Positions 12,005 through 39,297 of a stretch of 64,000 bases of DNA are shown in pieces. The notes beneath the pieces were generated by a model. It was not told the DNA's origin and searched no databases. It saw only the letters and a list, made by a program, of their open reading frames with translations. Source of the DNA: Halococcus saccharolyticus DSM 5350 (lineage in GTDB: Archaea > Halobacteriota > Halobacteria > Halobacteriales > Halococcaceae); assembly GCF_000336915.1 (NCBI RefSeq), contig NZ_AOMD01000030.1, forward strand, positions 328,357 to 392,356. The letters run 5' to 3'. The translations under genes were made by a program, and so were the position numbers. Each line of letters begins with the position of its first letter. Within the stretch, counting starts at the first letter, position 1.

Positions 12005-12290
12005 CCACCTTTTGCTGCGCTCGCTCGTTCGCGCCGCTCACTCGCTCGCTGGCAAAATCTGGACCAAAAGCCTCGTCACCCCCTTCGGGGGTTTCTCGGC
12101 CCGCTCGCTCACTCCGTTCACTCGCGGTAGAGCTGCACATGCCCTCCGCCTCCGCAACCGCACAGCACCGCCGAAGCCCTCGCTCGCTCCGCTCACTCAC
12201 CCTTCATCCACCAGGAGAACAAGCTCTCCTGAGCCTCGACTCACTTCGCTCGTCGAGACGCCAGGCCCGCGCCGCCCCGTAGCCGCACCG
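12005..12290. repeat. Low-complexity CGCTCGCTCACT-type intergenic tract
   Basis: This 290-bp non-coding stretch is built from variants of gctcgctcgttcgc and ctcactcgctcg, mixed with short palindromes such as cccccttcggggg (about 12080-12092). Reading frames here have none of the acidic bias of the real genes. The reverse-complement motif recurs at about 59265-59470. Such tracts are frequent between haloarchaeal genes; their role is unknown. Confidence 0.7.
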
Positions 12291-12294
12291 CTAG

Positions 12295-13158
12295 TCACAC
12301 CTGGTCTTCGATGAGCGCCGCGAGGTCGTCATAGAATCCGGATTCGTACTTCGTCTCGTCGTCGATCGTCGGCCGGGCGTTGGTTTCGGAAACTACCACG
12401 CGATCGTCGGTCACGAGCAGATCGACACCGAGCCACGGAATCCCCAGCTCCTCGGCGGTTCGCTCGGCGAGATCGCGGAGATCGTTCGAGAGGTCGACGC
12501 CCTCGGCCTCGGCCCCACGGTGGACGTTGTGCTTCCACCGCCCCACGCTCCGGGCCGGGTCGGGTAGACGGCGCTCGACCGCGCCGACGTACTCGCCATC
12601 GATACACATCGCGCGGTAGTCTGTCGCATTCGGGATGTACTCCTGGACGAGGAAGGATCGATCGCCGGTCGCCTGGTAGTCGTGCACCAGCGCGAGGTAG
12701 TCCGCGACCCCGAGGAAGGAATCGAGATCGCCGACCTTCACGACCCCAGTCCCGCGCGTCGTGGAGTTCGGTTTCACCACCACAGGCGGGTCGAACCGCT
12801 CGAAGACGGCCTCCAGTGCGGTGTCGTCGACCGGGTTCGAGATCAGTACTGTGTCGGGTACAGGGACGTCGGCACGGGCCAGGCGCGCGATCACGTCGGC
12901 TTTGTTCCGGGAGGTCAGGATCGCTTCGCGATCGTTGACCCAAGGCACGTCGAGCAGCGCGTCGGCGACCCCGCCCTCCATAATCCGCGAAGGGTGGACG
13001 AAGCCGACGTCGAACCCATTGAACTCGTTCGGCGGGTCGGTCAGCGCTGTCGTCCGTTCCTCGCACTGGACGTGCCGCGCGTCGATCCCGCGATCGGCCA
13101 ACGGATCGGCCATCCGCTCGAAAGTCTCTTCGCGTGTGGCGACCGCCAGCCTGAGCAT
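12295..13158 (-). CDS. RimK-like ATP-grasp ligase
   Basis: This 287-aa ATP-grasp enzyme would join a carboxylate to an amine using ATP. It has the central ATP-binding segments PPVVVKPNSTTRGTGVVKVG and FLVQEYIPNATDYRAMCIDG, and the metal-binding end GVDLLVTDDRVVVSETNARP. The N-terminal pre-ATP-grasp domain begins MLRLAVATREETFERM. The closest families are RimK/LysX-like (amino-acid or cofactor tailing), but the substrate cannot be assigned. It has no clear operon partner: the neighbour upstream is rpl10e, 59 bp away in the same direction. Confidence 0.85.
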   Translation of the reverse strand: MLRLAVATREETFERMADPLADRGIDARHVQCEERTTALTDPPNEFNGFDVGFVHPSRIMEGGVADALLDVPWVNDREAILTSRNKADVIARLARADVPVPDTVLISNPVDDTALEAVFERFDPPVVVKPNSTTRGTGVVKVGDLDSFLGVADYLALVHDYQATGDRSFLVQEYIPNATDYRAMCIDGEYVGAVERRLPDPARSVGRWKHNVHRGAEAEGVDLSNDLRDLAERTAEELGIPWLGVDLLVTDDRVVVSETNARPTIDDETKYESGFYDDLAALIEDQV

Positions 13159-13217
13159 AGCGGATCGAGGCCGGCGAGGAACAAAAGCGTTCGAAAAGAG
13201 GACGGTTCGGGGAGTGC

Positions 13218-13748
13218 TCAGGCGACGAGGAGTTCCTCGCCGCGCTCGACGGTGACGTCACACGGCGAGCCGATCTTGTTGTACGCGCGCCGGAGTGCCT
13301 CCTTCGCGACGTCGGCCTGGTCGACGTCACACCAGATCGTGAAGATGCGCTCGCCGGCGTCGATCCGTGCAGCGGTGCCGACGGGCTTGCCGAACGCCTG
13401 GCGCATCCCATCGGAAACACGGTCCGCGCCCGCGCCAGTTGCCTGCTTGTTCTCCCGAAGGACGTGGTGGGGGAACTTCCGGAGGATCATCTTGTAGTTG
13501 CCCTCCCCGAGGTTCTTCAGCAGGTGACGGTTCGCCGACAGTCGCGAGGACTCCATCGCACCGTGGCGGAGCTGGATCTCCTCGTCGACAGAGAGGCTGA
13601 TCTGGACCGGGTAATCCTCCGGATCGGCCCGGATGTCGCCCATCTTGTGCTGTGCGATCTTCGAGCCGGGGATGCCAGTGATGTACTCCTTGCGGGTGTA
13701 GGGAGGCTTCGAGATCTCCCGATACATCGAGGCAGGTTTCTCGGACAT
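13218..13748 (-). CDS. rpl10e: 50S ribosomal protein L10e (uL16 family)
   Basis: This 176-aa large-subunit protein sits near the peptidyl-transferase and tRNA corridor. Family motifs are [41 protein letters not shown] and the loop [31 protein letters not shown] (shown here only by its ends). The ATG at 13748 ([12 protein letters not shown]) gives the expected length. It is a strongly conserved housekeeping gene. Confidence 0.97.
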
Positions 13749-13856: not shown

Positions 13857-14864
13857 GTGAACCAACTCATCGACGGCGAGTGGGTATCCGACGCCTACGA
13901 GTCCACGAACGACGACGGCGAGTTCGATCGTCAGGAGACGAGCTTCCGGGACTGGATCGAGCCGGACTCGGACGCCGAGTTCCCGGCTGAGGCCGGGCGC
14001 TACCACCTCTACGTCTCCCTTGCCTGTCCGTGGGCCCACCGCACGCTCGTGACGCGCGCGCTGCGCGGACTCGAAGACACGATCTCGGTCGACGTGGTCG
14101 ATCCCTACCGCGCCGAGGACGGCTGGCAGTTCACCCCCGAGCGCGAGGGCGCGACCCCCGACACCGTGAACGGGTTCGACTACCTCCGGGAGGCGTACGT
14201 CGCAGCCGACCCGAACGCGACCGGTCGCGTGACGGTACCCGTGCTCTGGGATAAGAAAAAGGACACCATCGTCAACAACGAGTCCGAGGAGATCATGCGG
14301 ATGCTCGACACCGCCTTCGAGGAGTTCGCGAACGACGCAACGCTCTACCCGGAGGGCAAGCGTGACGAGATCGACGAGACCATCGACGCGATCTACGAGC
14401 CGATCAACAACGGTGTCTACCGTGCGGGCTTCGCCGGGAGCCAAGACGCCTACGAGGATGCGGTCTCGGAGCTGTTCGACGCGCTCGATCACTGGGAGGA
14501 CGTGCTCGCCGACCAGCGCTACCTCTGCGGCGACGTGCTCACCGAGGCCGACGTCTGCATGTTCACCACGCTGATCCGGTTCGACGACGTGTATCATACC
14601 CACTTCAAGTGTAACGTCAGGAAGATCGCGGAGTATCCGAACCTCTGGAACTACCTGAAGGAGCTCTACCAGTTGCCCGGCGTGGCCGCAACGGTGAACA
14701 TGGACCACATCACCGAGCACTACTACGAAACCCACACCGACTTGAACCCGAAACGGATCGTTGCGGTGGGGCCGAACCACGATTTCGACGCGGAACACGA
14801 CCGCGAGCGGCTGGCTGGCGGACCGCCGGAGGGTGTTAGTGCGAAGGCGTCAGCTGACGATTGA
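13857..14864 (+). CDS. Glutathione S-transferase family protein (Ecm4/YqjG-like)
   Basis: This 335-aa protein is of the Xi-class, glutathionyl-hydroquinone reductase type. The thioredoxin-like part contains the active-site motif [11 protein letters not shown], and [15 protein letters not shown] forms the ligand-binding side. The all-alpha C-terminal domain has the typical [19 protein letters not shown] and [16 protein letters not shown]. Haloarchaea use gamma-glutamylcysteine rather than glutathione, so the natural thiol is probably different (inference). The start is GTG at 13857; an in-frame GTG two codons upstream (13851) is equally possible. It is divergent from rpl10e. Confidence 0.9.
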
Positions 14865-36964: not shown

Positions 36965-38215
36965 TTACTGGTTACCTTTGACGATGTCCGCGACGCGCTG
37001 CCGGTCGAACAGCTTCTCGTCGGTCGGGAACGCCTCGGAATACTGCTGTTGAGCGAGCAACTCGGTCTGGAACAGGTTCGTGATCGGCCCCTGCTCGCCG
37101 GTACCGCCTTTGAACACCCGATCGTTTTGTACGGCCGTCAGCTGTTGGCCGACTGAATCCTGTTTCATGGGTTCGAAGTACTGGTTTCGAAACTCCTCGT
37201 CGGAGTTGAGCACACCCCAGTGAATGAATATCTGCTTCGGGTCGACCTCCAGCAGTGTCTCGTAGTCGATCATCCCGTTCTCACCGGTGTCCACGCCCGC
37301 GAACGCGTTCCGAACACCGACGTCGCGGTAGTGTTTCATCTCGTAGCCCTTCGCGGTGGGGTCGATGGCGTAAAATTTCCCCTTCGAGGGATCGGACCCA
37401 CCGTTGAGCAATCCGATCTTCGGGCGCTCTCTTTCCGGCGGGAGTCGGGAACGGACCTTCTTCCGAAACTCCTCGTGGAGCGCGGCGAACGCCTCGTAGC
37501 GTTCCTCGCGCTTGAACACCTTCGCCACCTTCTCGAAGGCCTCGTACAGCGTGTAGAACTCGTAGGGTTCGCCCCACGATTCGTCGCGCTTGCGGCGAAT
37601 AAAATTCCCGAAGAAGGGCGCGACGTTCTCTCCGATCTCTTCGACATCCCCTTCTTTCCAGTCGAAGTAGATGGCCGGGAGGTTCGGGTCCATCAGATGG
37701 AGGTCCGCATCGACCTCGTAGAAGATCTCCTTGTCGATGCTCTCGCCGTTCGCCCGGATGTTCGCCATCGAGTCGGTGTCGAGCGAAAACCCCGGCAGTT
37801 CGTCGTAGTACAGTTCCTTCAGCACCGCCAGTCCCTCCGAAGGGCGATCGATACCGGCGAGTCCGTCGCCCATCCCGAGTGCGATACCCATCTCTCCATA
37901 GCCCTCCTTGTAACAGGCCCACCGCTCGGGCACCGACTCGAATGCGACGTCACCCATCGGGGCCATCGTCACCGAGTACGAGCTTTCTCCGCCGCCGCTC
38001 GTCGCGTTTTCGCTCTCAGAGTCGGACGAGCCAGCCGTTTCTCCTCCGCTGGTGGTCGTATTGCTACTGTCGGAGCCAGTCGAACCGTTTGCGCCCGTAC
38101 CGGAACCACTCCCGCCGGTACATCCTGCGAGCAGGCCGCCGGCGATGACTGCGCCGCCGTACTTCACGCAGTCGCGCCGCGTCTGTCCCTCACGCACCGC
38201 GGACTCGTCTTCCAT
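36965..38215 (-). CDS. Siderophore/iron-type ABC transporter substrate-binding lipoprotein
   Basis: This 416-aa exported binding protein has a Tat signal (TRRDCVKYGGAVIAGGLL) with lipobox LLAGC and a long Gly/Ser/Thr linker. The ligand domain is of the helical-backbone FepB/FecB type, with FVAVE-like elements replaced by YSVTMAPMGDVAFESVPER at its start, a typical opening for iron-complex binding proteins. No permease or ATPase is encoded beside it. It heads a three-gene operon with two flavoproteins, and a DtxR/IdeR-like palindrome overlaps its promoter, which supports an iron role. Confidence 0.85.
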   Translation of the reverse strand: MEDESAVREGQTRRDCVKYGGAVIAGGLLAGCTGGSGSGTGANGSTGSDSSNTTTSGGETAGSSDSESENATSGGGESSYSVTMAPMGDVAFESVPERWACYKEGYGEMGIALGMGDGLAGIDRPSEGLAVLKELYYDELPGFSLDTDSMANIRANGESIDKEIFYEVDADLHLMDPNLPAIYFDWKEGDVEEIGENVAPFFGNFIRRKRDESWGEPYEFYTLYEAFEKVAKVFKREERYEAFAALHEEFRKKVRSRLPPERERPKIGLLNGGSDPSKGKFYAIDPTAKGYEMKHYRDVGVRNAFAGVDTGENGMIDYETLLEVDPKQIFIHWGVLNSDEEFRNQYFEPMKQDSVGQQLTAVQNDRVFKGGTGEQGPITNLFQTELLAQQQYSEAFPTDEKLFDRQRVADIVKGNQ

Positions 38216-38220
38216 GCGGC

Positions 38221-38234
38221 TTAGGCTTGCCTAA
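38221..38234. promoter_or_regulatory. DtxR/IdeR-type iron box
   Basis: TTAGGC-TT-GCCTAA is a perfect 6-bp-arm palindrome that matches half-sites of the DtxR/IdeR operator. It lies 6-19 bp upstream of the binding-protein ATG, between a TATA-like ctaagtagt (about 38238-38246) and the start. A metal-loaded repressor bound here would block transcription when iron is plentiful. Confidence 0.75.
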
Positions 38235-38283
38235 AACTACTTAGCCATTCCGATTTTTCGGATAGCCAAAAACGACACAAAAT

Positions 38284-39297
38284 TCAGTACGGTGCACCAC
38301 ACTGCGGGCACATCGGTGGACCACCCTCGGGGAGTGTCAGTCCACAGTGGGGGCACCCGTCGCCGTCGGGTGCCGTGATCTCCGACACAGCCTCGTCGGT
38401 CGTTTCCCGTATCGCGTCGATGCTGCCGATCCCGTTGTCCGTCTCGGGCTGTTCGTTCCCGTTGTCGGGTCCGTTGAGCGTGAGGGCGAAGCGGACTCGC
38501 TTGGCGACGAATGGCTCTCCGTCGTCGCCCAGTTCCGCGAGTGGCTCCGAGAGCGACACGTCGGCTTCCGAGTGTGTGAGCAGGCCGAGTGCCTCGGCAG
38601 CCCGTCCCTGGACGTGGGCATTCTCGTCGGCCAGCCGTGCGCCGAGCGCGTCGCTCGCTTCGGCGAGCCGTCGGGGGTGCTCACAGCCGACGACCGTCAG
38701 CGCCGTACTCAGATGGTAGCGCACGAGGACGTTCTCGTCGTCGAGGTGGTCGGCGAGGGCCGGAACGTGGTGTCTGAGTCTCTCCGGATCGCCCAGCGCG
38801 ACGTGTTCGAGGGTCTTCGCCAGTTTCTCCTTCACCTCGGATTCGTCGAACGACAACCCGATCCTGAGGTCCGCCAGTAACTCGGGTGAGACAACGATGT
38901 CGGGATGTTCGAGCGCCGCGTACCCCAGCGCCTCCGCCGAGCGGGCGCGAACGTAGTAGAACTCCTCCTCGTCGGCCAACCGATCGGCGAGCGCCGGCAC
39001 CATCGGAACGACCGCTTCGGGGACGGCCTCCGCGACGGCGACGAACAGCTTTGTGGTGGTCAGCCGCACCGAGCGCTCGGCGTCTTCGAGCAGCGCTTCG
39101 CATGCCGGGAGGGCTGGCTCTACTGGAGCTGGATCATCGGTCACGGCGGCTTTCAGCGATCGAAGACACGCTTTGCGAGTCTCGACTGACGCCGACGGGA
39201 GGGTCTCGACGAGCGCTGCGACTTCCGTGCCATCGCTCCGCTCTAACGCTTCGTCGACCGCCGCTTGCAGTGACGAATCCGGTCCTGCATCACCCAT
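38284..39297 (-). CDS. HEAT-repeat protein with C-terminal zinc ribbon
   Basis: This 337-aa protein is mostly alpha-helical HEAT/PBS-lyase-type repeats (for example YYVRARSAEALGYAALEHPD, VLVRYHLSTALTVVG, VQGRAAEALGLLTHSE), a scaffold for protein binding. The last 25 aa form a zinc ribbon, CPHCGLTLPEGGPPMCPQCG. It lies upstream of the iron operon in the same direction, but a separate promoter with an iron box lies between them. The partner is unknown. Confidence 0.85.
   Translation of the reverse strand: MGDAGPDSSLQAAVDEALERSDGTEVAALVETLPSASVETRKACLRSLKAAVTDDPAPVEPALPACEALLEDAERSVRLTTTKLFVAVAEAVPEAVVPMVPALADRLADEEEFYYVRARSAEALGYAALEHPDIVVSPELLADLRIGLSFDESEVKEKLAKTLEHVALGDPERLRHHVPALADHLDDENVLVRYHLSTALTVVGCEHPRRLAEASDALGARLADENAHVQGRAAEALGLLTHSEADVSLSEPLAELGDDGEPFVAKRVRFALTLNGPDNGNEQPETDNGIGSIDAIRETTDEAVSEITAPDGDGCPHCGLTLPEGGPPMCPQCGAPY

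Follow-up and report, generated by a model that had tools for sequence, protein, structure and literature searches.

An FhuD-like lipoprotein operon with two single-domain flavoproteins in the haloarchaeal iron regulon, and its possible role in releasing siderophore iron

To our knowledge, the way in which archaea release iron from imported siderophores has not been established. A locus of Halococcus saccharolyticus DSM 5350 raises this question directly: a gene for an FhuD-like lipoprotein is followed by genes for two FAD proteins, here called FP1 and FP2, and neither a FecCD permease nor an ABC ATPase was found beside the trio. Is this a system of its own, and what could the flavoproteins do in it? 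The locus was analysed within a stretch of 64,000 nucleotides, referred to as the window, and comprises the following features.

38284..39297, minus strand: HEAT-repeat protein of 337 aa with a zinc ribbon at the C-terminus; conserved gene upstream of the trio
38257..38270, minus strand: distal iron box TTTGGCTATCCGAA, degenerate with 3 mismatches, located 36 bp upstream of the proximal one
38248..38253, minus strand: TCGGAA, BRE-like element between both boxes, matching the consensus of 72 aligned promoters
38221..38234, palindrome without strand: perfect iron box TTAGGCTTGCCTAA, TTAGGC-TT-GCCTAA; putative DtxR-family operator
36965..38215, minus strand: FhuD-like siderophore-binding lipoprotein (assigned by family), 416 aa; Tat motif, lipobox, PF01497
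36082..36963, minus strand: FP1, single-domain thioredoxin reductase (TrxR)-like FAD protein with helical C-terminal extension, 293 aa
35336..36085, minus strand: FP2, shorter single-domain TrxR-like FAD protein, 249 aa

The locus and its iron boxes

A first-pass annotation of this DNA had described three genes with 1-bp and ATGA spacing behind a perfect palindrome, and both the gene coordinates and the gaps were confirmed. The stop codon of the lipoprotein gene is separated from the FP1 start by 1 bp, and FP1 and FP2 overlap by 4 bp at an ATGA. The palindrome, located at 38221-38234, ends 5 bp before the lipoprotein ATG, and no second perfect copy exists in the window. Gene maps were drawn with a simple codon-composition ORF caller, and hence single genes may be missed or mis-started in them. 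An anti-phage role of the trio was also considered and dropped, as PADLOC gave no match.

Boxes with at most two mismatches occur twice in the window, against 0.37 expected from shuffles. Across the whole genome, 11 sites were found with at most one mismatch, compared with 4 for a reversed control pattern. Several of the genomic boxes precede paralogous lipoproteins, a lipoprotein-led ABC operon (C18) or a FecCD permease (C21). A paralogous lipoprotein with its own FP1, also at C21, has two boxes upstream, and at C33 a box lies ahead of a tandem pair of lipoprotein genes and the ABC ATPase gene after them. Among homologous lipoprotein genes, 77 of 118 (65%) carry a box with at most two mismatches no more than 150 bp upstream. 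By the same criterion, 41 of 700 other genes of the same loci carry one, and shuffled sequence gives 0.4 of 118; since the promoter loci were fetched around these gene families, the contrast between genes is weightier than the raw box rate. Thus, the iron box proposed in the first-pass annotation is borne out by its excess in the genome and by its recurrence at homologous lipoprotein genes.

The spacing of the boxes was also analysed. In 65 cases the box ends 4-5 bp before the ATG of the lipoprotein gene, and a second box often lies further upstream by 34-37 bp (47 of 48 pairs). Between the paired boxes, a TCGGAA element (consensus at -19..-14 from the proximal box in 72 aligned promoters) and a T-rich stretch were observed. 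The window follows this layout: the near box is perfect, the far box, which had been overlooked earlier, is degenerate in the same 34-37 bp register, and TCGGAA is in register as well. As judged from the promoter sequences, the paired boxes fit two operators flanking a haloarchaeal core promoter with a presumed leaderless start. The proximal box would then be the putative operator of a DtxR-family repressor, and three strong DtxR-type repressor genes are present in the genome. Across the lipoprotein-gene promoters of the fetched loci the double-operator design is very regular.

The HEAT-repeat/zinc-ribbon gene, likewise overlooked before, is transcribed in the same direction as the trio and lies outside the boxed transcript. 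Homologues were detected in 116 of 391 genomes of the class. Considering the best 30 HEAT loci, found with the gene's own sequence and including its own locus, 16 have an uptake-system gene (lipoprotein, permease or flavoprotein) downstream on the same strand, inside the flank that was fetched, and in 17 a box lies within 400 bp downstream.

Place of the trio in haloarchaeal siderophore uptake

The lipoprotein shows both a twin-arginine motif and a lipobox (TRRDCVKYGG...LLAGC), and PF01497 matches it with 41.4 bits (cut-off 27.5). A further Pfam match, to CysG_dimeriser (E 0.089), was taken as noise. That the transport partner must be encoded elsewhere had been proposed previously, and boxed partners were indeed found. 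The genome encodes two FecCD permeases (PF01032), one of which (C21:178185-179168) is preceded by a box at 179359, 85 bp from its predicted start. At C33, the start of the ABC ATPase gene lies 5 bp behind a box with 2 mismatches; this ATPase shares 61% identity with a Halobaculum gene annotated as ABC transporter ATP-binding protein. Neither IucA/IucC synthetases nor PF06276 were found in this genome, and the siderophore used is therefore probably made by other organisms.

Such a distribution of parts is familiar from Haloferax volcanii, for which 11 FhuD paralogues and two permeases are described (PMC11349517). There, a ferR signal precedes all fhu genes, whose regulon membership is the ground for assigning them to siderophores (citing Leyn and Rodionov 2015), and several FhuD proteins and one FhuG protein are raised in iron-starved cells. 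The haloarchaeal FhuD-FhuG-FhuC system shares with our locus the many lipoprotein copies, the few permeases and the iron-regulon signal before each gene or operon. It differs in that the trio has two FAD proteins in place of permease and ATPase; flavoproteins are not mentioned in the excerpted account of the Haloferax fhu genes (PMC11349517). Under denitrification, Haloferax mediterranei lowers the expression of an "NAD(P)/FAD-dependent oxidoreductase" (log2 fold change -4.06) along with that of other iron-uptake genes, and the locus tag of this oxidoreductase adjoins those of an iron permease and ATPase (PMC11218638). By this neighbourhood and by name only, it fits FP1.

The earlier statement that no named system of this composition is known could consequently not be upheld: the lipoprotein is a member of the FhuD family, which has many copies and is already assigned to the FerR regulon and siderophores in Haloferax (PMC11349517), many relatives have a flavoprotein between FhuD and the FecCD permease/ATPase, and the H. 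mediterranei oxidoreductase is already listed among co-repressed iron-uptake genes (PMC11218638). We rejected a stand-alone new system because the permease/ATPase partners and the same flavoprotein occur together in relatives. The trio branches off from the DtxR/FerR-type, iron-boxed FhuD-FhuG-FhuC siderophore uptake regulon already known in haloarchaea; it is a real, conserved and largely known system, and FP1 is an uncharacterised enzyme within it.

Whether the trio order extends beyond this strain had been set beforehand as a check. The order lipoprotein-FP1-FP2 was found in at least five other sampled genomes (G003, G009, G322, G214 and G102, which is Halobaculum sp. CBA1158), spanning four genera and three families when the own genus is counted; the FP1 of G003 and that of G009 are of the commoner FP1 subclade. 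FP1-like genes are present in 359 of 391 class genomes, a count that can include close paralogues. When 53 FP1 loci were sampled from the list of genomes with FP1-like genes, 45 had a same-strand lipoprotein or permease gene no more than 0.8 kb away and 9 had a box of their own; either feature applied to 50. One of the three remaining loci adjoins an ABC ATPase. FP1 is hence a hallmark of the siderophore uptake locus. The order lipoprotein-FP1-permease(-ATPase) is frequent in relatives. Among named records, lipoprotein-FP1-permease was seen in Halospeciosus flavus and Halobaculum sp. CBA1158, and FP1-permease-ATPase-lipoprotein on pNG700 of Haloarcula marismortui. When contigs of named genomes were scanned with the FP1 alignment, at least a few haloarchaea were among the matches listed.

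Several of these loci show variations. At L183, L187, L194 and L200, FP1 has its own iron box directly upstream and no lipoprotein ahead. At L005:9440-14804, a lipoprotein-led ABC operon (lipoprotein at 12229-13551, probable permease, ATPase) carries one-mismatch boxes, TTAGGACAGCCTAA at 13565 and TTAGGACGGCCTAA at 14791, and the regulon may therefore include a second transporter type.

Two flavoproteins without an NADPH domain

Both FP1 and FP2 match Pyr_redox_2 and cover only the FAD part of thioredoxin reductase, the alignments to solved TrxRs skipping the NADPH domain. TIGR01292 matched them with 76.5 and 92.3 bits, far from its equivalog cut-off of 343, and no CxxC motif was found in any of 41 FP homologues. 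Since NADPH domain and CxxC are both missing, an identity as classical TrxR was ruled out. Neither PF04954 (SIP) nor PF06276 (FhuF) is among the families matched by FP1 or FP2. The two proteins form separate clades (99/95 support).

The structural model of FP1 (pLDDT 89.8) is a single Rossmann domain, of which about residues 14-207 match TrxR-type FAD domains with Z 21-24, and the C-terminal part (about 208-293) is helical. The best match is the TrxR-related protein TTHA0370 of Thermus thermophilus (2CVJ; Z 24.2 over 174 residues, 1.7 A, 31% identity). The FP2 model (pLDDT 65) was too poor for a fold search; by sequence, FP2 also matches TTHA0370 (E 2e-21). FP1 holds a near-invariant Cys57 in the loop QCAHIENYLGFP, which aligns with the flavin loop of TrxR, and FP2 has an invariant Asn49 at this position.

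TTHA0370 (2CVJ/2YWL) is the best match of FP1 in sequence as well as in fold and, like FP1, consists of a single FAD domain with no NADPH domain. However, it is only 180 aa long, has neither the C-terminal helical extension nor the flavin-loop Cys, and has no known iron link. Related in fold (Z 23) is the ferredoxin-dependent flavin thioredoxin reductase (5J60/6XTF), which takes electrons from ferredoxin rather than NADPH and illustrates that TrxR relatives fed by ferredoxin exist (PMC12796991). In contrast to FP1, this enzyme keeps a second domain and reduces thioredoxin via a redox disulfide.

Known types of siderophore reductase were sought in the same genomes. The SIP-type (PF04954) was found in 0 of 391 class genomes over the curated cut-off. 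PF06276 is present in 114 of 391, mostly paired in frames of about 600 aa or more; this arrangement suits the C-terminal portion of an IucA/IucC synthetase better than FhuF, and on the basis of these paired matches an FhuF-type reductase was set aside as a competitor. A precedent is IruO of Staphylococcus aureus, a TrxR-like enzyme that reduces hydroxamate siderophores with NAD(P)H (cited in PMC10294844). As with FP1 and FP2, a TrxR-type FAD domain is combined with an iron-regulator box and proposed ferric siderophore reduction. Unlike FP1 and FP2, however, IruO possesses an NAD(P)H domain and works with NAD(P)H; by lacking that domain the two also stand apart from TrxR-like ferredoxin-NADP reductases. 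Taking the precedents of IruO and the ferredoxin-fed TrxR relatives together with the absence of SIP, we regard FP1 as the most likely ferric-siderophore reductase of this locus, presumably with a protein as electron donor.

A proposed route of iron release and its alternatives

We consider it probable, at roughly 60%, that the trio forms a module of the siderophore uptake regulon of haloarchaea which is repressed by iron and in which FP1, perhaps with FP2, releases iron by reduction. At low iron, a DtxR-family repressor would dissociate from its box or boxes at the core promoter, allowing all three genes to be expressed together. The lipoprotein, anchored outside the membrane, would bind a ferric siderophore, probably made by other organisms, and pass it on to a FecCD-type permease and ATPase that are shared with other loci and lie elsewhere in the genome. 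Once the ferric complex has reached the cytoplasm, FP1 would reduce it via FAD, perhaps with the help of FP2, and Fe2+ would be released. Electrons would probably be supplied by another protein, for example ferredoxin or a further flavoprotein, as neither FP1 nor FP2 has an NADPH domain. Reductive iron release, which the first-pass annotation had proposed, appears the most plausible role on the combined evidence, with FP1, perhaps aided by FP2, as the leading candidate for this step. A flavoprotein that occurs in nearly every sampled uptake locus and is without the NADPH domain of its relatives would give the iron-release step a specific protein, and raises the question of its electron donor.

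The TrxR-like fold, the closest named models (TIGR01292) and the near-invariant Cys57 in the loop aligned with the TrxR flavin loop would also suit proteins that are not ferric reductases and act after import on the siderophore, its breakdown products or a thiol/disulfide partner. Without the NADPH domain and without a CxxC in the 41 homologues, ordinary disulfide reduction by FP1 or FP2 is unlikely, and the nearly constant linkage of FP1 to iron boxes argues against this explanation, which we judge improbable. The cargo of the lipoprotein bears on the reading as well. The protein has no close solved relative, and PF01497 also covers vitamin B12 and haem binders, so that another iron-linked compound such as haem or cobalamin could be carried instead of a siderophore. 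Set against this are the assignment of the Haloferax fhu genes to siderophores and the rise of several FhuD proteins in iron starvation (PMC11349517), and the many lipoprotein paralogues fit diverse xenosiderophores. We therefore consider such a cargo very unlikely.

FP2 homologues occur in 341 of 391 genomes, yet only 4 of 14 close and 1 of 7 distant homologues sampled adjoin a lipoprotein or permease or carry a box, a count that ignores FP1 as a neighbour. FP2 is tied to iron only loosely, being mostly away from uptake genes outside some lineages, and the case for its role in iron release is accordingly weak. Possibly FP2 is a flavoprotein of general use in haloarchaea that was captured by the iron operon in some lineages and plays no special role in iron release, while FP1 is uptake-linked. 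This is compatible with iron release by FP1. However, the translationally coupled FP1-FP2 order recurs in several genera, and in other genera FP2 directly follows the lipoprotein; we hold capture to be a serious possibility, somewhat short of an even chance. Similarly tentative is a wider proposal for FP1, namely that it represents a new class of ferric-siderophore reductase, single-domain, NADPH-independent, TrxR-derived and with a conserved flavin-side Cys and a helical C-terminal extension, which would receive one-electron equivalents from ferredoxin or FP2 and serve haloarchaea generally as the enzyme of intracellular iron release.

Further genes were noted around the flavoproteins. In several genomes of the same genus, including the own second FP1 locus, a 71-aa protein is encoded between lipoprotein and FP1 (L009:4801-5016, L080:6518-6721, L121:433-618, L082:5627-5830). 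Downstream of FP2 in siderophore clusters, two uncharacterised proteins of about 315 and 263 aa recur, as does a 126-aa DtxR-like protein that is annotated as "metal-dependent transcriptional regulator" in Halobaculum (FP2-downstream genes at L161:4881-7133, L155:10690-13005, L172:11870-13196).
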